Source: an uncultured Bacillota bacterium (lineage in GTDB: Bacteria > Bacillota > Clostridia > Peptostreptococcales > Anaerovoracaceae). From it: a stretch of DNA of 64,000 nt. The position numbers and the translations under genes are program-made. The notes under the pieces are model-generated. The model saw nothing but the letters and a program-made list of their open reading frames with translations, searched no databases and had not been told where the DNA came from. How positions within the stretch are numbered: position 1 is the stretch's first letter; each line of letters starts with the position of its first letter. The stretch is from NCBI GenBank assembly GCA_949284065.1, contig CASDUO010000012.1, positions 1-64,000 on the forward strand. Reading direction: 5' to 3'. This document shows, one piece after another, positions 48,090 through 63,252 of the stretch.

Positions 48090-49415
48090 ATGAATAAAAA
48101 CAACAAATTGAACAACGATTTAAGCAACGGATGCAACAGAGATTTAGATAAAGACACCGGTAGAAGCCTGAACAGAGAGAAAAAGATCAAAAACGGCCTT
48201 ATTTTCTCACTTTACGGGCTGATTCTGGGGGCTGTTGCCGGCGGATTGGTTTGGCTGGTCCTGAAGGTGATGAATCTGGGGATCGAGTTTCTGTGGGATT
48301 ATCTGCCTGAAAAAATAGATGGCGGTTTGTTGTACACGCTGACGGTATGCCTTACAGGAGGACTGCTCATTGGATTGTTCCAGACAAAGTTCGGAGTGTT
48401 GCCTGACAGCTTGGAAACAGTGATGGGAAAGTTGAAAGCTGACGGTACTTATCCTTATAACAATATACACGTTGTAGCCTGTGCCGCTCTGATGCCTCTC
48501 ATATTCGGAGGATCTCTGGGTCCTGAGGCTGGCCTTACGGGTATGATAGTGGGGCTCTGCTGCTGGGCCGGCGACAGATTGAAGTACAAAGGGGAACAGG
48601 CAAGAGAGCTTGCAGAGGCAGGTATGGCAGCCACCTTGGGCCTAATATTCAACGCCCCTTTTTATGGCTTTGCCAACAACTATGAGCATAGAAGGAGTGA
48701 GAACAGAAAATATTTCATAGCGAAGGAGTTCCGACTGCTCAAAACCATAGTTTATATTTGTGCCATAGCCGGAGGCTTCGCAGGAATGATGGGTCTGGGA
48801 CATATTTTCGGAGATGGAGGCGGTTTGCCCCGGTTTTCATATGAGGATGTTCCTACATGGAGCGACTGGAAGTACTTTGCAGTTTTTGCTGCAGCCGGAA
48901 CTTTAGCGGGGATCCTTTATATCCTTGTGGAAAAAGTCACCGGAAAATTGGCAGGATATGCGGAAAAGCGCAGAGTAATCAGCTGCATGACGGCAGGAAT
49001 AGCAGTAGCACTGCTGGGAACGGCCATACCCGAAACTATGTTCAGCGGCGAACATCAGCTGAGCTATCTGATGGAAGATTGGACCGGTATCACAGCAGGA
49101 TTGTTGGTGGCTATAGCTGCGTGTAAGATCGTTTTGACCAATATATGTATAGCTTTCGGGTGGCGGGGTGGAAACATCTTCCCCGTCATATATTCTGGTA
49201 CAGCTCTGGGATATGCTCTTGCGGCATTTACCGGAGTCAATCCCGTATTTGCGGTGGCGGCCACAGTGTCCGCCCTTTGCGGAGCGGTAATGGGAAAGCC
49301 TGTCACTGCAGTGGCAGTGCTTTTCCTGTGTATGCCCATTCGTTTTGTTGTGCCAATGCTGGTTGCGGCGTATATAGGATCTCTGGCGGCGTCCGCATAC
49401 AGAAAAGATAAATGA
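48090..49415 (+). CDS. ClC-family chloride channel/antiporter
   Basis: A 441-residue ClC protein with about eleven hydrophobic segments. Selectivity-filter-like motifs are GGSLGPEAGLTG (the GREGP position) and WRGGNIFPVIYSG (the GGxFxP position). It would move chloride or fluoride, with or without proton exchange. The first 30 or so residues are hydrophilic and Asn-rich. It lies 14 bp after the MurE-like gene and overlaps the phosphopantetheinyl transferase by 4 bases (ATGA). Confidence 0.87.
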   Translation: MNKNNKLNNDLSNGCNRDLDKDTGRSLNREKKIKNGLIFSLYGLILGAVAGGLVWLVLKVMNLGIEFLWDYLPEKIDGGLLYTLTVCLTGGLLIGLFQTKFGVLPDSLETVMGKLKADGTYPYNNIHVVACAALMPLIFGGSLGPEAGLTGMIVGLCCWAGDRLKYKGEQARELAEAGMAATLGLIFNAPFYGFANNYEHRRSENRKYFIAKEFRLLKTIVYICAIAGGFAGMMGLGHIFGDGGGLPRFSYEDVPTWSDWKYFAVFAAAGTLAGILYILVEKVTGKLAGYAEKRRVISCMTAGIAVALLGTAIPETMFSGEHQLSYLMEDWTGITAGLLVAIAACKIVLTNICIAFGWRGGNIFPVIYSGTALGYALAAFTGVNPVFAVAATVSALCGAVMGKPVTAVAVLFLCMPIRFVVPMLVAAYIGSLAASAYRKDK

Positions 49416-50041
49416 AAATTTTCTATTGTAAAATCCATGACTTCGCTGATCTTCGCGGATCAGAGTATCTTCTGCCTCAGCGCAGGGAACGCATGTATCG
49501 GTATATTCGTAATGAGGATCGTGCAAGATGCCTTGTGGGAGGACTTATGTTGCGTCATGTTCTCGGAAAGGGATATGGTGAGGATCTGGCATTTGGACCT
49601 TACGGAAAACCATATCTAAAGGAACAGGATGTCTTTTTCAACCTGTCTCATTCCGTATCTTATGCAGTGATTGCGGTTTCACATCATGAGGTGGGTGTGG
49701 ACGTAGAACACGTGTCTCCGTATTCCCTTTCTGTTGCAGAAAAATGTTTTACGGCAGAAGAGATGAAATGGCTTCTTCAGCATAGAAATCGCCGAGATTT
49801 TTACAGATTGTGGACAGGGAAAGAGAGCGTGATGAAGGCAGTGGGGGATGGATTGTCCATGGCGCCGGAGAGTTTTGATATAATGCCTGTCGAGGACGGC
49901 CCCCATAAAATCAGGGGAAAAACCTGGTATTTGTACTGGGCCGGTTTAGAAGAATATGAGATATGCGCGGCATGTGCGGCCGATGAGGATGTGGAGATGA
50001 TAGAGATAAAAAGAAGTGAACTTCTGGCGGAAAGATGTTAA
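49412..50041 (+). CDS. 4'-phosphopantetheinyl transferase, Sfp type
   Basis: A 209-residue Sfp-superfamily enzyme: NLSHSVSYAVIAVS, the Mg-binding VGVDVEHVSPY and FYRLWTGKESVMKAVGDGL. It transfers the phosphopantetheine arm of CoA to carrier-protein serines. Being next to the NRPS, it most likely activates both its T domains. The start overlaps the ClC stop (ATGA), and its stop codon overlaps that of the convergent MATE gene by four bases. Confidence 0.92.
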   Translation: MKIFYCKIHDFADLRGSEYLLPQRRERMYRYIRNEDRARCLVGGLMLRHVLGKGYGEDLAFGPYGKPYLKEQDVFFNLSHSVSYAVIAVSHHEVGVDVEHVSPYSLSVAEKCFTAEEMKWLLQHRNRRDFYRLWTGKESVMKAVGDGLSMAPESFDIMPVEDGPHKIRGKTWYLYWAGLEEYEICAACAADEDVEMIEIKRSELLAERC

Positions 50042-51828
50042 TAGAGATTTCGGGGATTTTTCCTAAAATGATTCCGAGAGAAGGTAAGTATGGTGGTATT
50101 AAATCCTAACTGACGGCTGTAATCCAAATTTGAAGCCAGTTTTTTCATAACTTGTATACCGTCTGTGGTAAGTTCCGGGTCAGGGGATCCACCGGGCTCA
50201 CAAGATGTGGGATCAAATATTTCCCCGTTGTCGCGAAAGCGTAGAATCAATTCTTTTTCAGTTATACGCAGCATTATATCTATAGAGCCGGGTTTGGTGA
50301 TTTTGTGAGCCAGTGCTGCAGTGTTGGCAGCCATTTCTTCCGCTGCTACACCGAGTCTGTTTGCTGTGAGCTGGTCCACATCGTTTTCTGTACAAAATTT
50401 AATAATCCGGCAGGAGATGCCTGCCGCATGATTAGGTGAGGCTTCTATAGTCACATCTAAAATCGCTCCCGGAGCGGTTTTTTCATTTATCATCAGCAGG
50501 CCCGCTACATTTTCCCTGCGCCGGATGACGGCGGCGGCGGCCAGCAGCACCAGCACCGTTGCCAGACCGGATAAACTGTAGCAAAGCCATATAAGATTCG
50601 GATCTGCAAGGGATAAAAGAAAAGCAAAGAGACAAACAAAAACCAGTCCGTCTAAAATAGCAATAAGGGAGGCGAGTTTTTCCCTGTTTGTGGTTGCGTA
50701 AAAATTCTCAAGCACTGTATTGATGGCACTGAATGGCAGATAAAGGGCAAAGAGACGGATAGCGGGTTCAAGAACGGCAAGTTCCTGCAGTCCGGACAGA
50801 CCGAAGAAACGGCCTACCGTTGCAGGTGTTATCATAAAAAAAGCCATGAGACCTACACAGGCAAATGTCAGGACTTTGCATGCGCTTTTTACGGTTTTGC
50901 GTATGCCGTAATAATCTTTTTCACCGAACAGAGTACCTACTATAGGCAAAAGAGAATCGGATGTGCCATTGACGAATATATTGGATATCAATAAAGCATT
51001 TGTGCACACCGTCATAACTGACATGCCTATGGAGCCCAAAGAAAAAACGACTATGGCGTTGAGCAGCATGGAACGGAAAAATGATGTGAGCTGGGTCAGC
51101 GCTTTTGGGAAGCCTATGAGTATTATATCCCATATTACCTTGATTTCCGCTTTGGAAGGTTTTGTAAACCGGAAGAAACGATTTTTGGATCTGAAATAAG
51201 GGATAAGTGTCAATATGCCTACAGTGTAGCCTGCAGCGGTGGATATGCCCGCACCCGCTATGCCTGTATCCAGAAATCCGATAAGGAGAAAATCCAGCAG
51301 GAGATTTACGCTGTTGGACAAAATTACTATTACAGCGGTGCTTTTAGGTCGCCCGTCTGTTCGGATAAACAGAGCAATTCCGAAAGAGAACATAAGGGTG
51401 GGACCTGCAAACATTAGAGGCCTGAGATAATCTGCTGTAATGGAGGCAAGGTATTCGTCGCCTGCGGCAAGGGCGATGGATACAGGCTCCATGATAACAA
51501 GCATAATCGCAAGAAAAAGTATCATCACTCCTGTTCCGCACAGAATGGACAGGGTAAAAACATGATTTGCCCGTTTGTCGTGGCGGCGGCCTCTTTCTAT
51601 GGATGCAAAAGTTATGCCCCCGGTACCGAAGAGCATATACACTACATTTATACAGAATATTATTGGGGAAGCAAGACCCAGGGCGGCAAGAGCCTTGTAC
51701 CCCAGGAGAAGCCCCACTATCATGCTGTCCACCACCGAAGCCAATGATATGGCCATCGAAGTCATCAGGGTTGGAAGCAAATATTCTCTGAACTTTTTTC
51801 TGACCAGTACACCTGTTCGCTCATACAT
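50038..51828 (-). CDS. MATE-family exporter fused to an RsbW-like ATPase domain
   Basis: A 596-residue fusion. Residues about 1-445 form a complete 12-helix MATE exporter (two halves, with the ASVVDSMIVGLLLG opening typical of MATE proteins). Residues about 455-585 form a GHKL/HATPase_c_2 domain like anti-sigma kinases RsbW/SpoIIAB: N box GVAAEEMAANT, a G1-like FRDNGEIFDP and a degenerate TTDGIQVMKKL. It lies 5 bp downstream of the NRPS in the same direction, so it is the probable product exporter. The ATPase part could gate export or sequester a STAS protein (inference). The ribosome site overlaps the NRPS stop. Confidence 0.9.
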   Translation of the reverse strand: MYERTGVLVRKKFREYLLPTLMTSMAISLASVVDSMIVGLLLGYKALAALGLASPIIFCINVVYMLFGTGGITFASIERGRRHDKRANHVFTLSILCGTGVMILFLAIMLVIMEPVSIALAAGDEYLASITADYLRPLMFAGPTLMFSFGIALFIRTDGRPKSTAVIVILSNSVNLLLDFLLIGFLDTGIAGAGISTAAGYTVGILTLIPYFRSKNRFFRFTKPSKAEIKVIWDIILIGFPKALTQLTSFFRSMLLNAIVVFSLGSIGMSVMTVCTNALLISNIFVNGTSDSLLPIVGTLFGEKDYYGIRKTVKSACKVLTFACVGLMAFFMITPATVGRFFGLSGLQELAVLEPAIRLFALYLPFSAINTVLENFYATTNREKLASLIAILDGLVFVCLFAFLLSLADPNLIWLCYSLSGLATVLVLLAAAAVIRRRENVAGLLMINEKTAPGAILDVTIEASPNHAAGISCRIIKFCTENDVDQLTANRLGVAAEEMAANTAALAHKITKPGSIDIMLRITEKELILRFRDNGEIFDPTSCEPGGSPDPELTTDGIQVMKKLASNLDYSRQLGFNTTILTFSRNHFRKNPRNLY

Positions 51829-51833
51829 TTTTC

Positions 51834-54800
51834 TTACCCTATATCCATGTCCCTGTCGAAAAATCCTAGACCCTTTACCGTCTCAAAGAAGCTCGACAGA
51901 TACTGTTGAGTGGTGATAGGCCACTGGAAGCCGTATCTGAGCAACGCCTGCGAGGTGTAGCAGTTGACGGAACCCACAGGTACCACACGTCTTCCATGTT
52001 CCTTATAGGCGATGAGTGAATTCATGTGCCGGGCTTTTTTTCTGTCCAGCATAGCTTCTGTGTATGCAGCCTTGTAATCTTCCGTCTCGCAGGGCAGTAT
52101 ATCTATTCCTACATGGCCGAGAGCATCTATTATATCCCCCATAAACACAGAATGGTCGTTATATGGATGGAATATACAGCATTTTTCGGGAGTCCTGGCT
52201 AAAAGGAGTATGGCGGAGGCAGTGCAGTCTATGGGAGCGAATTCAGCATCCATGCCCATATCTCCGTAAGGTATGCGTCCGATAAGGTGATATGCCTTGA
52301 TCCTGCCCAGGAAGTTGTTTGTTTTGAAGTTCGCCTGGAATTCTCCATCCTCCTGTCTGGCCATGAGATTGCCCACACGCATTATCTTTCCGTCCATGCC
52401 GTCTCTTATGGCTTCAAGGGTTATGCGTTCCGCAAGGAATTTGCTGTGAGTGTATTTGTTTGAGAGGTCCTGTCCGAAGTACAGCATATTTTCGTCAAGC
52501 TTGAGGTTTTCGTCAGGTGTGCCGTCCACGCTCATGCCCGCTATGCTGACAGTGGATATCTGTATGAACCGGCAGCCTTTCTTTTTGCAAAAGGCCACGC
52601 TGTTTTCTACTCCGCCCACATTTATATCTTCTATATCGGTGCCCGCTGAAAAATGTTTTACGTTGGCAGCGCAGTTTATGTAGGTATCTATGGGAAGACC
52701 TTCGAGTTTATCAAAAAGATCGAGCCTTGTGATATCTCCGTCTATCACGACTATGCGTGATCCGAAGAGCCGATCGAAACCGTCGGAGAAATAATAAACC
52801 AGCATGCTTTTCAGGCGATCTGTGGCCGAAGTCCTGCCTCCGCGAACCACGCAGTAGGCGGTGCCTTTCTCATTGCGCAGGAACTGGCAGAGCACATGTA
52901 TTCCCAGGAATCCGGTAGCTCCCGTTATGCATACATTACCCAGTTCACGCTGTTTTCCTGCTCGCAGAGCATCTAAGGTGTTATTCTTAAGGACTGATTC
53001 CAGTGAATCGTAATCATAGCTGCATATATCATCATCTTTGCGGACATCAGTCGGTTTCAGCTCAAGACCGGCAAGTTCACGGGGAGTGGGATTTGCAAAT
53101 ACATCGCTGTAGCTTAGAGTAAATCCCCTGGCGGCGGCATCTATGGTCACTTGTGTTACCAGTAGAGAAGTTCCGCCAAGATCGAAGAAGTTTTCCGTAA
53201 CACCTATACGCTCCATATGAAGTATGTTTTGAAATATCTCACAATAGGCCTGTTCCGCTTCATTTTTCGGGGCCTCGTAGTTTTCCCTTTGCATGAGTTT
53301 TGCATCGGGGAGAGACTTGCGGTCTATTTTACCATTGGGGGTCATGGGCATGCTTTCCAGTTGCAGGTAAGCTGTGGGCACCATATATTTGGTAAGAGAC
53401 CGGGCCAGGGATTCTCTCAGGTCTTCAATGGATATGGTGTGATCCGCAGTAAAGTAAGCGCACAAGTGTTCTTGCCCGTGAAGTTTCTTTACCAGGACGA
53501 CACAGCTTTTTATACCGGTTTGCGAACTCAGCACGTTTTCCACCTCACCCAGTTCTATACGCAGGCCGCGCAGTTTGATCTGACCGTCGTTACGTCCCAG
53601 TATGATTACTTCGCCGTCCTTTGTAATGCGAGCAAGGTCACCGGATCTGTAGTATAGTATTCCACCAAAATCGCAAAATCGCTGGGCGGTGAGTTCACTG
53701 TTGCCGAAATATCCTTTTGCCACGCCATTTCCTCCTATCCAGAGTTCTCCTGTGACACCTGCAGGCAGAGGATGGCCTTCTATGTCCATAACCAGTTCCG
53801 TTACGCCGTAAAGAGGCGGGCCCACGGTTATAGTCTTATCGGAGAGGAGTTTTCCGTTGCAGGATACGGTGGTTTCAGTGGGGCCGTATGTGTTGATCAA
53901 TAGGGCATCAGTGATATCCCGCAGCCTTTCATACAGCTGGGTGGGGTAGCCTTCTCCACCGGCCATTATCACCTTACATTTTGACAGGGCTTCTTTCATG
54001 TCATCCAATTCCATGTATTGAAGCATACGGGACGGAGTGGCATTAAATGCGTCTGCTCCGGTGCACCTGAATAGCGAGGCCAGCTTATCGGGATTCTTTG
54101 ATTGTTCATCGTCTGCCAGAACCAGCCTCAACCCGTTCATGAGAGTTGAGAAGGCTTCTTTCAGGAACATATCGAAACTTACCGTAGTAACCGATACCAT
54201 CGTGCACCTGTTCTCTTTCAGCACCTGCACATGGAGATTTTCCGGCTTATCCAGCACATAGTTGATTATGTTACCATGGGTTAGCATGACGCCTTTGGGT
54301 CTGCCTGTGGATCCGGAAGTATAGATCATGTAGCACAGGTCGCTTTCTGTCACGGGCAATAGGGGATTGCCAGTGTTTTTGTTTTTTAGCAATTCGTTTA
54401 TATCCAGAGAATTTTCTGTTTTTCCCATGCCGTCTGTAAGTATGTATCCGGCATCGCTGTCAGAGAGAATATGTTTTATGCGATCCTCAGGATAATCCGG
54501 ATCCACCGGTATATAGGCGCAGCCCGCTTTGATTATACCCAGCATGGATATTATGATTCTACTGTCGCGGGGCAGCATAAATGCGATGCGATCCCCTCTT
54601 TCTATCCCCAGATCCAGGAGAGAATGGGCCAGAGCATTTGCGCGGCGATTCAGCTCGCCGTAAGACAGGGTTCCGTCTGATGCGGTAAGAGCAGGGGCAT
54701 CAGGTGCTGCCGATACCAGATCCTCGAACACCTCTTGGAGAGAGTTGAAAGGCAACGGTTCCGTCCGGGTGTCGAAAGAGGCCGCGTAGCTTTCCTCCTT

Positions 54801-57800
54801 TCCGGTAATGAGGGAGAGGAGGCTCAGGGTCTTATCCTGAGATGAGACAAGGATGGAAGCTGCATTTGCTATACATTCCGAGAATGTTTTCATGTATGTT
54901 TTGCCGAAGACGGCATCATCGTATTCCACTTCCACGGTGTAACGATCAGGTGCCTCCTGTATGTTTACAGATATAGGGAACTTTGCCTTGTTGAGTCCCA
55001 AGACCGAAAAGGTCATGGGGCGGTCCCCAAGAGTGTGTTCCGAAACTACGCCCCCCTGATATGCATACAGGAGCTGAGCGTCATATCCCCAGTCAGATGA
55101 GGCTCGGAGGTAGGAATAGGCCTGGTGCTCCAGAACATCGACGGTTTCCTGATGGACATACTTCAAAAACTTTTCTGCAGTCATATCAGGATCGGTTTTC
55201 AAAACCATGGGAAGAGTCTTTACAAGCATGCCTATGTTGTTCTGAAGCTGTGCACCGTCCCTCCCGTTGGTTATATAGGCTATGCGGGCCTCCCTCACAG
55301 AAGCGAAGCGACCGGTGACGAAAGCTGTGGCCGCTAAAAACAGATTGGATGGAGTGATACCCAAACCTTTTACAGCGTCGTCTAAACTGCTTTTCACAAT
55401 GAAGGTTCTCACGGTTTCGGGGTGACCGGCACCATTGGCTTCGCCATCCTCAGGAATAGATGTGGCACCTTCTCCGTCACCGAGCCTGGACCGGAAAAAG
55501 TCTTCTGCCTTTTTTGCGGCATCTGTTTTTCCGGGATCTTCTTCTGCCAGAGCCAGATCGAAGCTGGTGAAATCCTCTGACTTAAGGCGAGCGCCATTGT
55601 ATGCCGCAGACAGGTCTCTCAGGAAAATATCCATGGAGCCACCATCGAATATTATGTGATGAAAGTCACAGAGCATATGAAGTTCATTTTCTGTGCGGTA
55701 TAACTCTATTCTGAAGAGTTCGCCTTCAAAGAAATTAAAAGGGCGTACGAAATCACAGAGCAACTTCTCATATTCCATTTGAGTGCATTCATTGTATGGG
55801 ATTTCTATGATCGCATGGTCGCGACGGAGCTGCATGGGTTCGTTTTCTTTCATGGTGAAATGGGTCTTTATGTATGGATGAGCATCTATGACGTCAAGTA
55901 TACTTCTTCTCAGCTTTTGAACATCGGTACCGGGATCCAGAGAGAGCGCAAAAGGTATGTTGTAGGCCAAGGTTACAGGATCTTTTACACAGGCGAAGTA
56001 CAAACCCAGCTGGTTCTGAGTAAGAGGGTACATGTCCCGCTTTTCAAAGGTTTTTTCCACATAGTCACATTTTTTTTCAAGGAGTGCCGCAATTTTCTCC
56101 ACCGTCTTTTCACGCATGAGATCCATTGTGCTCAGTTGCTTGCCGGTTTTTTCTGTTATAGCGGCGGCGGCCTTTATGGATGAAAGAGAGTTGAGGCCTG
56201 CATACATAAGGTCGGTGGTTATACCGAAGTCGTCCATGCCGATTATTGAGGAGACGATATGGAGTATATCCTTTTGCAATTCTGTGGCTGCAGGTACGAT
56301 TTCTTCTGCCTGTATGGATATTTTAGGCAGTTCCTTTCTGTTGACCTTGCCGTTCTGATTCAGTGGCATGCGCTCTATCTGCATGGTGGCGGCGGGGATC
56401 ATATATGCGGGAAGCTCTTCTCCTATGAAGGAATTGAGCGCCTTTATGTCCACGTTGGAATCGGAAACCACATAAGCGACTATACGTTTGCCGCCTGCTG
56501 CATCTTCCTGGGCTATTACTGTGGCGTCATTTATGCCCTCGTATTCCCTTATACGGCCCTCTATTTCTGTCAGTTCTACACGGAAACCGCGAATCTTCAC
56601 CTGGAAATCCCGTCGTCCTATGAAATCTATATCTCCGGATGGGAGAAAACGTGCCACATCGCCGCTTTTATACATGGTGGCGTAATCAGGATCATCGGAA
56701 AACGGGTTGTCCGCAAATTTTTCCTCTGTTAGGTCGGGACGGTTCAGATATCCCTTAGACACCTGTCTGCCCGATATGCACATCTCGCCGGCCACGCCTA
56801 CAGGCGCGAGATCGCCGTGCTGATCTATTATGTATATGGAGGTGTTGTCCAAAGGCTTTCCTATAGGAACTCGCGAGTAAAGTTTATCGACCTTGAACCG
56901 GTTGCTTATTATAGTGCATTCCGTAGGTCCGTAAAGGTTGTAGAAATCAAATGCGGGAGGCTCCAGGGGCGTGAGAGATTCACCGCCGATTGAAAGCGCC
57001 CTGAGAGTCCTTCCTTCCATGGTTTCTGCGAACTGCCTACCCAGCTGTGTAGTCATGAATGCAATCGAGATGTTGTTATCATCAAAATATCTAGCCAGGC
57101 CTGTCAGGTCGAGGCGCATTTTTTCCGGTATTATGTGAAGGCAAGCGCCACTTATAAGAGTGGGATACATATCCATCATGCAGGCGTCGAACCCGAAACT
57201 GGCGTAAGCCGGTATATTATCTGTGGCTGAAATGCGGTATTCGCGACAATAATACTGCAGGAAATTTGCAAGATTCTTGTGAAGTATCATGACACCCTTG
57301 GGATTCCCTGTTGTGCCTGAAGTATACAGCAATATGAGCAGATCCCGGGGTGAAGGTTCAGGTGGAACAGCAGAGGGCGCGGGAAGGGATTCCGTGATTC
57401 CGCTGTCGATGAATTTCCCTTTGAAGTTTGGGAGTTTGTTATAGAACTCCGGGTCTGAAATTATGATGTCCGCCCGGGCATCATCCACCATGAACTGCAG
57501 TCGTTCAGAAGGATAGGCGGGGTCCATAGGCAGATATGCGGCTCCGGATTTCAACACTGCCAGAGCGCCTATTGGCATCATCATGCCGCGTTCCACCATT
57601 ATGCCTACCACAGAGCCTTTTCCAACTCCCAAGGAGGCCAGATGCGCTGCAAGCCGATCGGTGATGTCATCCAACTGCCGGTATGAGATTTCCCGGTTGA
57701 GAAAGACAGCCGCACGGTTGTCGGGGGTCGCCTTTGCCTGTCTGCGGAAAAGCCCTACAACGGTTTCGTCTTTGTAGGCATCGTCCTTTTTTCCGGAAAA

Positions 57801-59207
57801 ATCCTCAAGGATCTGGATACGTTGACTATCCGGAAGACGGGATATATCAATGATGTTCTGTTCCGGGTCACATTTTGCCAATCTCTCAAGCACGGCGGCA
57901 TACTGCTCCATAAAATTGACAATCACTTCCTTGTAGTAGAGCTTGGAGGAATATGAAAGAGTCAGGTCCATCATATCACCGCGATGTATGGCTTCAAGCT
58001 GCAGGTCTATGGCGAGAGCCTGTCTATCAAGTTCTAATTGTTCTACAGTAGCACCATGGATCACAGGTAAAGGATCCTCATGAAGATAGTTAAAAATCAG
58101 ATCGAATACCGGTGAACGGGACGGGCTTCTGTCAGGAGCCAACACGGGAACAAGTCTTTCAAAAGGGTATGTTTCATTGGCTTTTACGTTTTTTATAGTG
58201 GCAGCAGTCTGTGTTATATAGTCTGAGACAGTCATGCTGCCCCGGGGTGTCAGGCGCACGGGCAGGGTGTTTACGAACATGCCTATCATGTCGGTCTGTT
58301 CTTTCATGGTGCGACCGCTCATGGCAGTGCCCACCACTATATCCTCACTGCCGCAGTATTTGCCCAGGGTGATACCCAAAGCGGACATCATTATCCCGTA
58401 TCGGGTGACGCCGAATTTTGTGGCAGCGGATTTTATAGTATCAGCGTTAACGTGAGCCGATACATGCTCGTCGGCAAATGGTAAAACATCAGGTCTTATG
58501 GGGACGGTGGGCATGTCTGTTTCAGGCACACCGTCGGAGAACATTTCGCGGAAGAGTGCTTCCCCTTCGTTGAAATCTGTGTTATCCTGCTGCCAAACTG
58601 CATGATCCAGGTAGTCTAGCTCTACAGGCTCCGGATCATTTCCGGCATACAGTTCAAAGAGGTCGCTCTGGAAAACTTTCATGCTCAGACCGTCTATTAT
58701 AATGTGATGCACGCAAAGGTGAACGGTATGTTCACGGTTACTGTGCTTATATATATGGAAACGTAAAAGAGGGGCTTTCGAAAGATCGAACGGTTTGTTG
58801 GAGTCACTGGTCATCTGTTTCACATCATCCGGTTCGCACTCGGTGAGGCTTACCGGGATGCATATCCGGTCTGCGATGCGGTGAGTGTATTCCCCTTTTT
58901 CCGAGGGATAATATGAACGCAGGATGGCATGGCGCTTTGCCAGATCATTGACAGCTTTTTTGAATTTATCAATATGGAACTCGCCCTCTATGCGCAGAGC
59001 ATAGTGATTGATATTGTATGCCACCGAGTCCGGAGCCATGGCCTGTTCGGTTACCATCTGGCGTTCCGAGAATGTGAGAGGCCATTTTTCTCGGCGGCCG
59101 GCTTTGAGGATGGGGATATGGGCCCGATGCTCCGAGGATGCGCCCCCTTCTTTATCCGGAGAATACTTCAGTGCATTTTCAAATCTAGTGATAAAATTCA
59201 AAATCAT
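51834..59207 (-). CDS. Seven-domain nonribosomal peptide synthetase, C-A-T-C-A-T-R
   Basis: A 2457-residue synthetase. Order: C1 (HHIIIDG, 167-173), A1 (YTSGTTGNPKG near 628-638; YKSGD; NGKVNRKEL), T1 (Ser near 1007 in GLNSLSS), C2 (HHIIFDG, 1183-1189), A2 (YTSGSTGRPKG near 1629-1639), T2 (LGGTS, Ser 2014) and a terminal thioester reductase (GATGFLG 2096-2102; Tyr2252-x3-Lys2256). It should join two amino acids and release the chain as an aldehyde or alcohol. The leading C domain suggests N-acylation of residue one. There is no epimerase or thioesterase. Hand-aligned specificity residues (235,236,239,278,299,301,322,330,331): A1 D-A-M-F-S-G-L-I-I, A2 D-M-K-N-I-A-T-V-S. AAAGGGGA precedes the ATG. 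Confidence 0.95.
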   Translation of the reverse strand: MILNFITRFENALKYSPDKEGGASSEHRAHIPILKAGRREKWPLTFSERQMVTEQAMAPDSVAYNINHYALRIEGEFHIDKFKKAVNDLAKRHAILRSYYPSEKGEYTHRIADRICIPVSLTECEPDDVKQMTSDSNKPFDLSKAPLLRFHIYKHSNREHTVHLCVHHIIIDGLSMKVFQSDLFELYAGNDPEPVELDYLDHAVWQQDNTDFNEGEALFREMFSDGVPETDMPTVPIRPDVLPFADEHVSAHVNADTIKSAATKFGVTRYGIMMSALGITLGKYCGSEDIVVGTAMSGRTMKEQTDMIGMFVNTLPVRLTPRGSMTVSDYITQTAATIKNVKANETYPFERLVPVLAPDRSPSRSPVFDLIFNYLHEDPLPVIHGATVEQLELDRQALAIDLQLEAIHRGDMMDLTLSYSSKLYYKEVIVNFMEQYAAVLERLAKCDPEQNIIDISRLPDSQRIQILEDFSGKKDDAYKDETVVGLFRRQAKATPDNRAAVFLNREISYRQLDDITDRLAAHLASLGVGKGSVVGIMVERGMMMPIGALAVLKSGAAYLPMDPAYPSERLQFMVDDARADIIISDPEFYNKLPNFKGKFIDSGITESLPAPSAVPPEPSPRDLLILLYTSGTTGNPKGVMILHKNLANFLQYYCREYRISATDNIPAYASFGFDACMMDMYPTLISGACLHIIPEKMRLDLTGLARYFDDNNISIAFMTTQLGRQFAETMEGRTLRALSIGGESLTPLEPPAFDFYNLYGPTECTIISNRFKVDKLYSRVPIGKPLDNTSIYIIDQHGDLAPVGVAGEMCISGRQVSKGYLNRPDLTEEKFADNPFSDDPDYATMYKSGDVARFLPSGDIDFIGRRDFQVKIRGFRVELTEIEGRIREYEGINDATVIAQEDAAGGKRIVAYVVSDSNVDIKALNSFIGEELPAYMIPAATMQIERMPLNQNGKVNRKELPKISIQAEEIVPAATELQKDILHIVSSIIGMDDFGITTDLMYAGLNSLSSIKAAAAITEKTGKQLSTMDLMREKTVEKIAALLEKKCDYVEKTFEKRDMYPLTQNQLGLYFACVKDPVTLAYNIPFALSLDPGTDVQKLRRSILDVIDAHPYIKTHFTMKENEPMQLRRDHAIIEIPYNECTQMEYEKLLCDFVRPFNFFEGELFRIELYRTENELHMLCDFHHIIFDGGSMDIFLRDLSAAYNGARLKSEDFTSFDLALAEEDPGKTDAAKKAEDFFRSRLGDGEGATSIPEDGEANGAGHPETVRTFIVKSSLDDAVKGLGITPSNLFLAATAFVTGRFASVREARIAYITNGRDGAQLQNNIGMLVKTLPMVLKTDPDMTAEKFLKYVHQETVDVLEHQAYSYLRASSDWGYDAQLLYAYQGGVVSEHTLGDRPMTFSVLGLNKAKFPISVNIQEAPDRYTVEVEYDDAVFGKTYMKTFSECIANAASILVSSQDKTLSLLSLITGKEESYAASFDTRTEPLPFNSLQEVFEDLVSAAPDAPALTASDGTLSYGELNRRANALAHSLLDLGIERGDRIAFMLPRDSRIIISMLGIIKAGCAYIPVDPDYPEDRIKHILSDSDAGYILTDGMGKTENSLDINELLKNKNTGNPLLPVTESDLCYMIYTSGSTGRPKGVMLTHGNIINYVLDKPENLHVQVLKENRCTMVSVTTVSFDMFLKEAFSTLMNGLRLVLADDEQSKNPDKLASLFRCTGADAFNATPSRMLQYMELDDMKEALSKCKVIMAGGEGYPTQLYERLRDITDALLINTYGPTETTVSCNGKLLSDKTITVGPPLYGVTELVMDIEGHPLPAGVTGELWIGGNGVAKGYFGNSELTAQRFCDFGGILYYRSGDLARITKDGEVIILGRNDGQIKLRGLRIELGEVENVLSSQTGIKSCVVLVKKLHGQEHLCAYFTADHTISIEDLRESLARSLTKYMVPTAYLQLESMPMTPNGKIDRKSLPDAKLMQRENYEAPKNEAEQAYCEIFQNILHMERIGVTENFFDLGGTSLLVTQVTIDAAARGFTLSYSDVFANPTPRELAGLELKPTDVRKDDDICSYDYDSLESVLKNNTLDALRAGKQRELGNVCITGATGFLGIHVLCQFLRNEKGTAYCVVRGGRTSATDRLKSMLVYYFSDGFDRLFGSRIVVIDGDITRLDLFDKLEGLPIDTYINCAANVKHFSAGTDIEDINVGGVENSVAFCKKKGCRFIQISTVSIAGMSVDGTPDENLKLDENMLYFGQDLSNKYTHSKFLAERITLEAIRDGMDGKIMRVGNLMARQEDGEFQANFKTNNFLGRIKAYHLIGRIPYGDMGMDAEFAPIDCTASAILLLARTPEKCCIFHPYNDHSVFMGDIIDALGHVGIDILPCETEDYKAAYTEAMLDRKKARHMNSLIAYKEHGRRVVPVGSVNCYTSQALLRYGFQWPITTQQYLSSFFETVKGLGFFDRDMDIG

Positions 59208-59248
59208 AATCGTCCCCTTTACTAATTAAAAAAAACCGATGTGCATCC

Positions 59249-59266
59249 ATTATACGATAAAATCGT
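59249..59266 (-). promoter_or_regulatory. NRPS -10 element with an abutting palindrome
   Basis: TATAAT on the minus strand (59254-59249) lies 42 bases before the NRPS ATG, but no acceptable -35 is found 17 bp upstream. The palindrome ACGAT-AAA-ATCGT (59254-59266) abuts the -10 on its upstream side, a likely operator position. Confidence 0.45.
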
Positions 59267-59281
59267 AGGCGTGGGTACTTA

Positions 59282-59304
59282 TTTTATAGTAAAAATGTAT
59301 ATAA
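59282..59304 (+). repeat. 23-bp direct repeat, copy 1
   Basis: TTTTATAGTAAAAATGTATA plus TAA. It matches 60520-60542 at 22 of 23 positions in the same orientation; the two copies bracket the IS1249-type relic. Confidence 0.85.
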
Positions 59305-59351
59305 CCTGCAATTTTAGGGTTATAGGAGAAAAAGAGTTGGTGGCCCTAATT

Positions 59352-60149
59352 TCAATAACCAGGGCATTCACTGGATTTATGAAATTCGCTCCATACGATC
59401 GCATCTCCCCAATCAGGGATATCACCGGATAGTTTTTCTTGTTTGGCCATCTTCCTGTATATATCAGCGATGCTCTCGTCCGTTGGCATCAGCTTCGATG
59501 ATTCAGTAGCATCAGGCGGTTCCGGTGAGTGCATATAGCACCACCAGAAAACCGCTTTTATTCTTCTTTCGATAGATAAACCTCTATGCGTTTTAAGCAT
59601 CTCTCTAAGCCTTGAATTGATACCTCCCTCGATTTGCTTATTGGTTGAAGGTGTTTTATCGATCTCATGTCTTAAAGTCTCATCAAGATAAGTGAACATC
59701 GTCCCTTCTTTAAGCAATATCATGATCGAACGTTGTGCTTTGAGAAGCTTTTCATGCGTAGGTCTGCTGTTTCCATATTCGCCATATTATTAGCTGACTG
59801 AGAAACTCATTGTACTTCTGCATCCATTCAATGAACCTCATCGCCCATACTTCTTTTTCTTCTCGACATACACCACACCATCTTGTTGTTCAACTCTCGG
59901 TGACATAGGCCATATGTTCCAAAACTGAGTTGTTTTTCTTCTGAACGCTCGTCCCTCACCCGGTATTCCCTTTTGAGTTTGTTTACTGAACAGCCACTTT
60001 AAGAATATTTTTAACTGCTTTTATGAATTATCGATTTTAGGAGTATGGATATCGGAACAATTCCTGCAATACCATCTTTGAGATCCCGATTTATTCTTTA
60101 CATATTTAATACAGATACTACTGCAGACAGGACAAATAACATGTTTCAT
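59352..60149 (-). pseudogene. Decayed IS1249-type transposase (IS256 superfamily)
   Basis: A transposase remnant on the minus strand. The N-terminal zinc ribbon is readable from ATG 60149 (CPVCSSICIKY...WYCRNC), and a middle piece in another frame reads FLKWLFSKQTQKG and FRRKTTQFWNIWPMSP. The C-terminal part, 59352-59723, keeps NKQIEGGINSRLREMLKTHR, IERRIKAVFWWCYMHS and an end like WSEFH. The whole spans only about 800 bases against about 1.2 kb for an intact gene, so there is a large internal deletion plus frameshifts. No clear terminal inverted repeats were found. Confidence 0.75.
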
Positions 60150-60519
60150 ATATCTTCCTTCGAAATACATCGTTTTTATCGCTTTTTTCTGTCCCGGAGG
60201 TCTCACATCTATTGTAAAGCTACAAATTTTTATCATCGTAAATATACTTATCCATTGAAAAATCCTTCGTATAATATATTCGCACATACATCACAGTTCT
60301 CCGATTGCCACACTTTGTTATATCTTGTTATGAGATTTTCTTGCCCTTGCATTTGCCCTGATGAGCAAGGAGGGAAAGAGTCAACTTGTGTGTAACCGTA
60401 TAAAGAGATAAGGCGAACGCATTGCGATAAATCCTTTATTTTCAAGGCTTTTGGAGGATTTTATTAAAACACTGTAACCTTTGTTGAGAAGTCATAATTT
60501 TCTGATATTCAAATTACAC

Positions 60520-60542
60520 TTTTATGGTAAAAATGTATATAA
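60520..60542 (+). repeat. 23-bp direct repeat, copy 2
   Basis: TTTTATGGTAAAAATGTATA plus TAA, one mismatch from 59282-59304. The stretch 60150-60740 around it holds no gene I can support. Confidence 0.85.
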
Positions 60543-60608
60543 TTCCGCATTACCCGAAGAGCGGAAAAACGGCATGGCATACTGTACAATGTTGCGATAA
60601 AAGATAGG

Positions 60609-60637
60609 TTACACAGATTGCTGCGGTGTGATAAAAT
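60609..60637 (+). promoter_or_regulatory. Possible promoter of the STAS-PP2C operon
   Basis: TTACAC (60609-60614), 17 bp, TAAAAT (60632-60637) with TGA before it (extended -10). It lies about 100 bases before the STAS gene. The 11-mer GATAAAATCGT at 60630-60640 also occurs at the NRPS promoter (59256-59266). Confidence 0.45.
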
Positions 60638-60740
60638 CGTGGATAGTAAGGATGATATATTGAATATGTAGAAAACAGTGCGTGTGCGACATGCCTGAAT
60701 AGCAGAGACTGATACGTCAGGTATATTAAAAGGAGGCATT

Positions 60741-61037
60741 ATGGAAATACATAAGGAGCAATCAGGGAATGAACTTGTAATAAAAGTTGAGGGCAGGCTT
60801 GACACTTTGAGTGCACCGGGATTGGAGGCGGAACTCAAGAGAAGTCTGGGAGAGACGGAAAATCTGATTTTTGATTTCGGTTCACTGGAATACATATCAT
60901 CCGCAGGATTGCGTGTGATGCTGGCAGCCCAGAAAGCAATGAATAAACAGGGAAAGATGATTGTAAAGAATGTAAACGAGTCTGTACATGAAATCTTTGA
61001 AATAACAGGATTCGTGGACATATTGACGATAGAATGA
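60741..61037 (+). CDS. STAS-domain anti-sigma factor antagonist
   Basis: A 98-residue single STAS domain of the SpoIIAA/RsbV type. The phosphorylation site is YISSAGLRV with S54 aligned to the regulated Ser. In partner switching the unphosphorylated form binds the RsbW-like kinase, and a PP2C phosphatase reverses the phosphorylation. The phosphatase gene follows after one base. AAAAGGAGGC is the ribosome site. No sigma factor gene is in the window. Confidence 0.9.
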   Translation: MEIHKEQSGNELVIKVEGRLDTLSAPGLEAELKRSLGETENLIFDFGSLEYISSAGLRVMLAAQKAMNKQGKMIVKNVNESVHEIFEITGFVDILTIE

Positions 61038-61038
61038 A

Positions 61039-63252
61039 ATGATTACGAAATTTATGGATGAATCCGAAAACAAAGCATTTATCACGGGGAGGAGCATCGC
61101 AGTTTTTTTGATCACAGGTCTTTTGTTTTTTGCAGTGACTATGCCCTTCCGACACTTTTTTCATGTGGTGTCCATGACTGAGCTGCGACCTGCCAGCGCC
61201 TTCAATCCGGTACTGGGCCTTATTTTCAATTGGCCGGCGGTTCTGGGCTGTGCTTTTGGAAATCTAGTCGCCGATATCATGTCCGGATATGATACGGTCT
61301 CATGCATATTAGGTTTCTTGGTGCAGGTGGTGTACGGAAGCGTTCCATTTTTGATTTGGAGACGTTTTGGTGGGGATGTGAGGCTCAATACGGCGGCAAA
61401 TGTATGGAGATACATGTGGATAGTATCTGTGGACTCGGCAGTCACTGCCTTGCTTGTAAGTGCTGTTATGCATACAGCGGGAAACGATGCAGATTATCTC
61501 ATGACCGCTTCCATGATATTCCTGAACAATTTTGTATTCTCCATGACCATAGGTATATTCATAGTTCTGGCGTTCATCAGAAAGACTCTGTCAAGAAAGG
61601 GCGAGACCTTTTCTTTGAATGAACGGCTGATATTAATTTTTCTGATCATGGCGGTTTTTTCCGCGGTAATGATGGCATGGACTGCTTTTGGGGACTATTC
61701 GGGAGACGACACGGAGCGTTTGTACTTCGTGGATAGGGTGTATGCACATATAGCCATAGATATCCTGCTGTTCTGCCTGATCAGCCTCTTTTTCGTCCGG
61801 TATGCGGAGCGGAATATAACTATACCCATGGAAAAGCTGGCAGAGGCAGCGGAAGACTATATAAGCGCAGGCAGAAGCGGAGAGCCTGACTATAAAATGG
61901 TAATTGAACGGTGCGGCAGGTACATAGGCTCATACGGAGAGGCGGGAAAACTGGCAGAGGTGTTTTGCGATATGTCCGTCAACCTTGAAAAATACATAGA
62001 CAACCTTACCAAGGCCACTGCGGAAAAAGAGCGCATAGACACTGAACTGAACCTTGCAAGGGAGATACAGGTGGATATGTTGCCCCATAATTTTCCCGAG
62101 TTTTCAATGAGATCCGCTTTTGAAATATATGCCTCCATGGATACAGCAAAGGAAGTGGGAGGAGATTTTTATGATTTTTATATCATAGACGATAGTCATA
62201 TAGGGATCACCATCGCAGATGTGGCAGACAAAGGAGTCCCCGCTGCGTTGTTTATGATTATGTCCAAAACTTACTTGAAAAGCCGGGCGTTGACGGGAGA
62301 AACTCCGGGTGAGATCCTCACTAATGTGAATAACCAGCTTTGTGAAGGGAACGACAAACAGATGTTCGTTACAGTCTGGATGGCTGTTTTGGATCTTGCC
62401 ACCGGCAAGCTCACAGCCGGAAATGCAGGACATGAGTATCCTATAATCTCAAAAAACAACAAAGGATTCCGGCTGTATAAAGACAGGCACGATTTTGTAT
62501 TGGGAGGCATGGAAGACACGGAATACAAAGAGTATGAGATGATTTTGTCTCCGGGAGACGTCGTCTTTGTTTACACCGACGGCGTGACGGAAGCCACAGA
62601 TGGCAAAGGTGAAATGTATGGAACGGAGCGTCTACTTCAGGCTCTTAACGGAAGCTGCGCCGAAGCGCCGGAAAAAATTATCACGGATGTCCGAGATGAT
62701 ATAAGCCGATTTGTAGGAGAGGCTGTACGGTATGATGACATGACAATGCTTGCTATGATCTATAAGGGGCCGGGCGCAGAAAGTACAATCGGACATAGAG
62801 AGGCAGAACCTCCGCCAAAAGCCATAGAGGCCGGAACATTGATCCTTGAGGCCACTATGGAAAACTGGGACGCTGTGATGAGATTTTTGGAATGCGAGCT
62901 CCAAAAGGCAGGTTGTTCCGCAAGGGGGAAAACGTCCATAGAGATCGCGGCAGAAGAGATATATACGAATATAGTGAAGTACGCCTATCCCGATGATGCC
63001 GGCACAGTGACCATATCCCTGTCTTTACATGAGGGAACAGGCGACGGTCCGGGATACGTCCGCATAGTGTTTACAGATGAGGGCATACCTTATGATCCTC
63101 TTTCCAGAGAAGCACCGGATATCACTTTGCCGGCCGAGGAAAGAACGAGCGGAGGACTGGGCATACATATGATACGGAACATGGTGGATCGTGTGCATTA
63201 TGAGTATATCGACGGGCACAATGTCCTGACGATGGAAAATAAAACCCTATAG
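61039..63252 (+). CDS. Membrane PP2C (SpoIIE/RsbU-type) phosphatase with C-terminal RsbW-like ATPase domain
   Basis: A 737-residue protein. Residues about 15-255 hold seven to eight membrane helices, followed by a linker/coiled coil (265-345). A SpoIIE-type PP2C domain follows (about 345-576) with metal Asp in GGDFYDF (D376), ADVADKG (D394), YTDGVTEA (D514) and YDDMTM. A GHKL ATPase domain ends it (about 600-735: IAAEEIYTNIVKYAY, FTDEGIPYDP, GGLGIHMI). It could both phosphorylate and dephosphorylate its STAS partner at 60741. The membrane part suggests sensing of a membrane or external signal. It forms a two-gene operon with the STAS gene. Confidence 0.92.
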   Translation: MITKFMDESENKAFITGRSIAVFLITGLLFFAVTMPFRHFFHVVSMTELRPASAFNPVLGLIFNWPAVLGCAFGNLVADIMSGYDTVSCILGFLVQVVYGSVPFLIWRRFGGDVRLNTAANVWRYMWIVSVDSAVTALLVSAVMHTAGNDADYLMTASMIFLNNFVFSMTIGIFIVLAFIRKTLSRKGETFSLNERLILIFLIMAVFSAVMMAWTAFGDYSGDDTERLYFVDRVYAHIAIDILLFCLISLFFVRYAERNITIPMEKLAEAAEDYISAGRSGEPDYKMVIERCGRYIGSYGEAGKLAEVFCDMSVNLEKYIDNLTKATAEKERIDTELNLAREIQVDMLPHNFPEFSMRSAFEIYASMDTAKEVGGDFYDFYIIDDSHIGITIADVADKGVPAALFMIMSKTYLKSRALTGETPGEILTNVNNQLCEGNDKQMFVTVWMAVLDLATGKLTAGNAGHEYPIISKNNKGFRLYKDRHDFVLGGMEDTEYKEYEMILSPGDVVFVYTDGVTEATDGKGEMYGTERLLQALNGSCAEAPEKIITDVRDDISRFVGEAVRYDDMTMLAMIYKGPGAESTIGHREAEPPPKAIEAGTLILEATMENWDAVMRFLECELQKAGCSARGKTSIEIAAEEIYTNIVKYAYPDDAGTVTISLSLHEGTGDGPGYVRIVFTDEGIPYDPLSREAPDITLPAEERTSGGLGIHMIRNMVDRVHYEYIDGHNVLTMENKTL

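Follow-up and report, generated by a model that had tools for sequence, protein, structure and literature searches.

Partner switches are known mainly as controls of sigma factors, with a few other outputs. The switches RsbV/RsbW/RsbU and SpoIIAA/SpoIIAB/SpoIIE of Bacillus each combine a STAS protein bearing a conserved Ser, a HATPase_c_2 kinase, and a SpoIIE-type PP2C phosphatase. In the SiaABCD system of Pseudomonas aeruginosa, the kinase SiaB and the phosphatase SiaA set the phosphorylation of SiaC, and the output is the diguanylate cyclase SiaD, not a sigma factor (PMC8457831). In addition, SulP/SLC26 transporters carry STAS tails (PMC8256260), which places a partner-switch-type domain at the cytoplasmic end of a transporter.

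The locus described here resembles each of these systems in part. In the window (the whole stretch of 64,000 nucleotides analyzed), a partner-switching gene set, namely, a STAS protein with the Ser, a kinase-type HATPase, and a PP2C, is encoded together at 60741-63252, and a MATE exporter encoded at 50038-51828 ends in a tail with the fold of RsbW and SpoIIAB of the Bacillus switches. Unlike those switches, the 11 fusion cassettes examined contain no sigma factor (no sigma-70 region 2 match), and a transporter carries an extra, degenerate HATPase copy. SiaB, the SiaABCD kinase, is a protein distinct from the target SiaD, whereas the proposed target here is a transporter that itself bears the kinase-like domain. 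In SulP/SLC26 proteins, the antagonist (STAS) is the fused partner, whereas in the window the kinase-like side is fused, and the transporter families are unrelated. The open-access literature searched contained neither a description of the MATE-HATPase architecture nor a HATPase-side domain that is fused to a transporter and travels with a switch.

The fusion protein and its genomic setting

The fusion gene (50038-51828) lies on the minus strand, a point missing from the first-pass annotation, and is a single, uninterrupted reading frame of 596 aa present in one copy in its genome. The exporter part, residues 1-440 (50509-51828, minus strand), is of the DinF type. Pfam MatE (PF01554) matches it in two stretches at 96 bits (cut-off 24.9), and phmmer aligns it with DinF-BH (BH2163, PDB entry 5c6o) over residues 8-441 (E 4e-22), placing D34 opposite D40 of BH2163. 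The D34/D40 alignment would be consistent with ion-coupled export. The tail, residues 455-596 (50041-50466, minus strand), follows the MatE region and is matched by HATPase_c_2 (PF13581) at residues 462-582 with 32.7 bits against a cut-off of 27.4. Its landmarks are an N-box (E498/N502), a G1 box (D533/G535), and a degenerate G2 box at G557.

The AF2 model of the full-length fusion has a pLDDT of 83.4 and a pTM of 0.85; for the tail modeled alone from a 54-row alignment, the mean pLDDT is 86.1 and the pTM 0.80. Foldseek returned RsbW/RsbV and SpoIIAB entries as the best matches of the tail model. In VIA-align comparisons, the best structural match was RsbW (6m37; Z 15.4 over 115 residues at 2.0 Å), SpoIIAB (1l0o) scored Z 15.1, and the best histidine kinase scored Z 9.1; the value for SiaB is Z 11.8. 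A phmmer search of the PDB with the tail sequence alone gave only noise, and the RsbW match was seen with the profile of the fusion family (A1; E 1.1e-4). PDB entries for MATE proteins, unlike the fusion, matched this profile over the transporter part only. By sequence and by fold, the tail is thus an HATPase_c_2 domain of the RsbW/SpoIIAB type, and the initial description of a complete MATE exporter followed by such a GHKL domain is borne out.

Immediately upstream, a dimodular, reductase-terminated, AusA-like nonribosomal peptide synthetase (NRPS) of 2457 aa is encoded at 51834-59207 (minus strand); it scores 1275.6 bits with the NCBIfam AusA model, below the model cut-off of 2500. From the domain layout, its product is probably of the dipeptide aldehyde or pyrazinone type. 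The fusion starts 5 bp downstream of the NRPS on the same strand; co-transcription is therefore likely, in agreement with the earlier assignment of both genes to one operon. The two-module NRPS, terminal reductase, and phosphopantetheinyl transferase (PPTase) recall the AusAB aureusimine and gut pyrazinone clusters (PMC12153313). The two-gene ausAB, however, lacks a MATE-HATPase exporter and a STAS/SpoIIE switch. The PPTase in question, an AusB-like 4'-phosphopantetheinyl transferase (49412-50041, plus strand; Pfam ACPS, 61.1 bits), is convergent with the fusion and overlaps it by 4 bp.

The STAS-only protein (98 aa; 60741-61037, plus strand; Pfam STAS, 63.8 bits) carries S54 (codon 60900-60902) in a Y-I-S-S-A-G-L motif; we take S54 to be the equivalent of SpoIIAA S58. 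The first-pass annotation had located this protein correctly, but its gene is on the opposite strand from the fusion and 8.9 kb distant, where it adjoins its own SpoIIE-HATPase gene. The latter (61039-63252, plus strand) starts 1 bp after the STAS gene and encodes a membrane protein in which Pfam and motif alignment place a SpoIIE-type PP2C (residues 385-573) and a C-terminal HATPase_c_2 (604-732). This HATPase keeps GGLG, so that the STAS protein has an intact kinase domain beside it, a point that had gone unremarked; the protein is a putative phosphatase and kinase in one. A small Cys-rich ORF and the remnant of an IS1249-type transposase (59352-59723, minus strand; NCBIfam IS1249, 127.6 bits, C-terminal third only) occupy 59352-60287, in the gap from the NRPS operon to the divergent STAS operon, and are possibly the trace of a rearrangement that separated the two. 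A promoter and terminator scan of 59000-61100 gave nothing above shuffled sequences.

In the organism's own assembly (1.52 Mb, 95% complete), the STAS protein at 60741 is the only PF01740 match found, and SpoIIE is matched twice. A second HATPase adjoins a sigma factor on contig C21, where no STAS gene is present. There (L114:764-1911), the anti-sigma HATPase precedes the sigma factor and appears to have lost its N-box Asn, and the upstream neighbor resembles a fragment of gyrase/topoisomerase subunit A. Contig C14 (L113:1483-1812) has a near-identical but broken duplicate of the HATPase at the C terminus of the window SpoIIE protein.

Distribution of the fusion and linkage to STAS and PP2C genes

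When the window protein alone was used as the query against genome contigs, no relatives were found, and an alignment query (A2) was needed. The best 80 of 495 candidate stretches in the genome collection were kept; these come mostly from rumen and gut MAGs labeled Lachnospiraceae, Oscillospiraceae, or Erysipelotrichaceae/Solobacterium. In total, 169 MATE-HATPase fusions were assembled, 158 of them distinct. The full-length architecture occurs throughout the window's family and in other families of the class, although most MATE matches in the class survey end before the tail. In a midpoint-rooted tree, the tails group as a single clade, separate from other HATPases (support 0.77). A cultured carrier is Butyrivibrio hungatei DSM 14810, which belongs to a different family from the window organism and in which the fusion adjoins a PP2C gene (L196). 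We could rule out a chance or assembly artifact, given the single genomic copy and the 169 fusions recovered, this cultured strain included. An oddity of Lachnospiraceae only was likewise rejected, as the window's family is a different one and many families of the class have fusions.

Linkage was scored with profiles of the STAS, PP2C, and HATPase domains encoded in the window. Of the 158 distinct fusions, 54 have a STAS gene, a SpoIIE-PP2C gene, or both within 3 kb (flanks are truncated at 53 of the 158 loci), and 73 of 78 linked STAS/PP2C genes are on the fusion's strand. On the fusion tree, the linkage trait requires at least 30 parsimony changes, compared to a shuffled mean of 45. A PP2C gene occurs within 3 kb at 19 of 60 family loci, where SpoIIE number and genome size predict 1.06; the Poisson tail (~1e-17) assumes independence among related genomes and is therefore too small, but clade redundancy falls far short of explaining the excess. 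Roughly two-thirds of fusions have no STAS or PP2C gene within 3 kb, many of their loci being cut by contig ends, and for these the partners may act in trans.

Tail-less MATE genes served as a control. None of 48 had a STAS gene within 6 kb, and those fetched independently showed no STAS or PP2C linkage. For four tail-less MATEs, a PP2C gene is no more than 300 bp away; all four are in loci fetched for their fusion, which makes the control imperfect. In L060, L063, L068, and L046, a SpoIIE-type PP2C gene lies on the same strand as a tail-less MATE gene at a distance of 40-137 bp, which suggests that the association of PP2C with MATE reaches beyond the fusions. At the genome level, two groups of the same family were hand-picked by completeness from the family listing. 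STAS was present in 24/24 fusion genomes and in 13/24 others (p 2e-4, uncorrected for kinship), and the mean SpoIIE number, likewise uncorrected for relatedness, was 4.0 versus 1.2. The co-occurrence with STAS and PP2C genes for which the first-pass annotation had called is therefore present at both scales.

Gene order varies among the linked loci. The order STAS, fusion, GNAT, PP2C+HATPase recurs in L054, L067, and L090, whereas L045 has STAS, PP2C, fusion, DUF218, HATPase, and L215 has STAS, PP2C, fusion, STAS/APH/HATPase. In the nearest relative (L031), the order is PP2C, fusion, two other genes, STAS, HATPase. The window's gene set appears in L230 as one co-directional run of NRPS, fusion, STAS, and PP2C+HATPase, and L231-L234 have NRPS followed by the fusion; the divergent STAS operon of the window therefore likely belongs with the exporter. 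Complete partner-switch sets are found in L031, L038, L045, L049, L054, L067, L075, L090, L222, L223, L230, and L235, and the Ser motif of the phosphorylation site is present in all 52 STAS proteins of fusion loci. Genes for AMP-binding, GH3, and ATP-grasp enzymes also neighbor fusions.

Further domain combinations were seen at these loci. Sodium:dicarboxylate symporters (PF00375) near MATE-HATPase fusions carry an N-terminal degenerate HATPase-like domain, detected by our custom profiles only and not by Pfam (L032:13074-14771 and L050:4620-6284). Directly after a STAS, MATE-HATPase, PP2C run, L049:8022-10736 encodes an NRPS-like enzyme (AMP-binding, PCP, thioesterase) that continues into an intact HATPase_c_2 domain. 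At L215:9452-11038, L175:2730-4304, and L129:4069-5250, triple fusions of STAS, APH phosphotransferase, and HATPase_c_2, or STAS-APH forms lacking the HATPase, accompany STAS, PP2C, and MATE-HATPase genes. L051:8068-10737 combines MATE, HATPase_c_2, and HD-CE (the last identified by Pfam) in ~890 aa; fusions of 888 and 900 aa in L064 and L077 are further three-domain candidates.

The ATP site of the tail

Conservation of the ATP site, which the first-pass annotation had taken as decisive, is split. Of 158 fusions, 155 keep the N-box Glu, 132 the N-box Asn, and 140 the G1 Asp; since the window tail retains E498, N502, D533, and G535, some nucleotide binding may be possible. However, the G2 box GGxG is absent from 164/169 tails (the window has TTDGIQ), the lid between G1 and G2 has a median of 16 residues compared to ~20 in cassette HATPases, and 127/169 tails have Cys in place of the G1 Gly. 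Among the other cassette HATPases, whether free or fused to PP2C, STAS-APH, or NRPS, GGxG is kept in 35/36, the exception being a sequence cut by a contig end. Relative to RsbW-type kinases, the window tail thus has the N-box Glu and Asn and lacks GGxG and a full ATP lid.

A 10-member subclade of tails has lost the N-box Asn, yet some of its members lie in the tightest STAS/PP2C operons: PP2C lies within 4 kb in 10/10, STAS within 1.7 kb in 7, and a separate intact HATPase is present in 8. N577, which is not an ATP-box residue, is invariant in 168/169 tails and in 38/39 other HATPases and could be part of a shared interface. Two roles had been offered for the tail at the outset, phosphorylation of the STAS protein and gating of the exporter by the regulator. 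The loss of GGxG, the short lid, and the Asn-less subclade in tight operons weaken the former and strengthen the latter. The simplest reading would be a division of labor, in which STAS phosphorylation is written by a PP2C and an intact kinase and read by the derived HATPase of the exporter.

An exporter as the proposed output of a partner switch

We consider it somewhat better than an even chance that the exporter is wired into a partner-switching module in which STAS phosphorylation gates transport through the tail. The fusion would most likely export the product of the adjacent NRPS. In the SpoIIE-HATPase protein (61039-63252), the PP2C part would remove phosphate from STAS S54 and the intact RsbW-like part would add it. 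As a derived docking domain, the exporter tail would bind STAS of one phosphorylation state, and this binding would switch transport on or off. We infer STAS binding, the direction of gating, the substrate, and the exporter (rather than transcription) as the output, and hold the mechanism no higher because an argument from fold or gene order cannot prove gating.

Several other roles for the tail can be weighed against the same evidence. Were it an active serine kinase acting on STAS S54 and reporting the state of export to gene regulation, its RsbW/SpoIIAB fold, the widely kept N-box Glu and Asn and G1 Asp (all four landmarks in the window), and the conserved S54 would follow naturally. This is unlikely given the decayed G2 box, shortened lid, and Cys-substituted G1 box, the cassettes in which Asn-less tails mostly sit beside a separate intact HATPase, and the intact HATPase already carried by the window SpoIIE protein. 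That the tail is instead a stand-alone nucleotide or energy sensor of the exporter, with no STAS role and with linkage reflecting co-regulated biosynthetic islands, would suit the majority of fusions that are not beside STAS or PP2C genes and the biosynthetic enzymes near others. We regard it as very unlikely, as linkage is recurrent, co-directional, and far above expectation and as ATP-site motifs decay in the tails while being kept in cassette HATPases.

Two further explanations return the output to sigma factors. RsbW and SpoIIAB bind such factors, and one sigma factor with its own anti-sigma HATPase is encoded elsewhere in the genome, so the tail could be a membrane-tethered anti-sigma factor or transcription regulator, with the transporter as sensor and transcription as output; with no sigma gene in 11 fusion cassettes and the genome's sigma factor already paired with an adjacent HATPase, this is the least probable of the readings weighed here. 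Alternatively, the window STAS/SpoIIE pair could serve the sigma/anti-sigma pair on C21, leaving the MATE tail as a leftover or with another partner. The genome has one STAS protein, the C21 pair has no STAS gene of its own, and in the window the STAS and NRPS operons diverge, the STAS gene being 8.9 kb from the fusion and the IS remnant lying between the operons. This is nevertheless highly unlikely, since L230 has the same four-gene set contiguous and co-directional and since the fusion of the nearest relative, L031, lies in a PP2C/STAS/HATPase cluster.

Under the preferred reading, in which the switch gates the exporter, the recurrence of the fusion in >150 other gut bacterial sequences, often beside STAS, phosphatase, and intact kinase genes, means that export, not a sigma factor, may be the output of the switch. 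More tentatively, and at somewhat less than even odds in our judgment, gut Clostridia may have a class of partner switches whose output is membrane transport. A MATE exporter would have acquired the kinase-like domain of the switch in a single event; the domain would then have lost the glycine motif of its G2 box and become a STAS receptor, so that phosphorylation would gate small-molecule export directly, without transcription, and Na+/dicarboxylate symport through similar fusions. MATE transporters need no ATP, and the fusion family offers a reason for an ATPase-like domain on such a transporter: it is probably a protein receptor, not an engine. The family also points to candidate partner proteins of the exporter, STAS and SpoIIE. 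If the switch acts on the exporter, it would provide gut and rumen bacteria with a direct posttranslational link from sensing, by SpoIIE proteins with Cache/HAMP domains, to the release of a small molecule.
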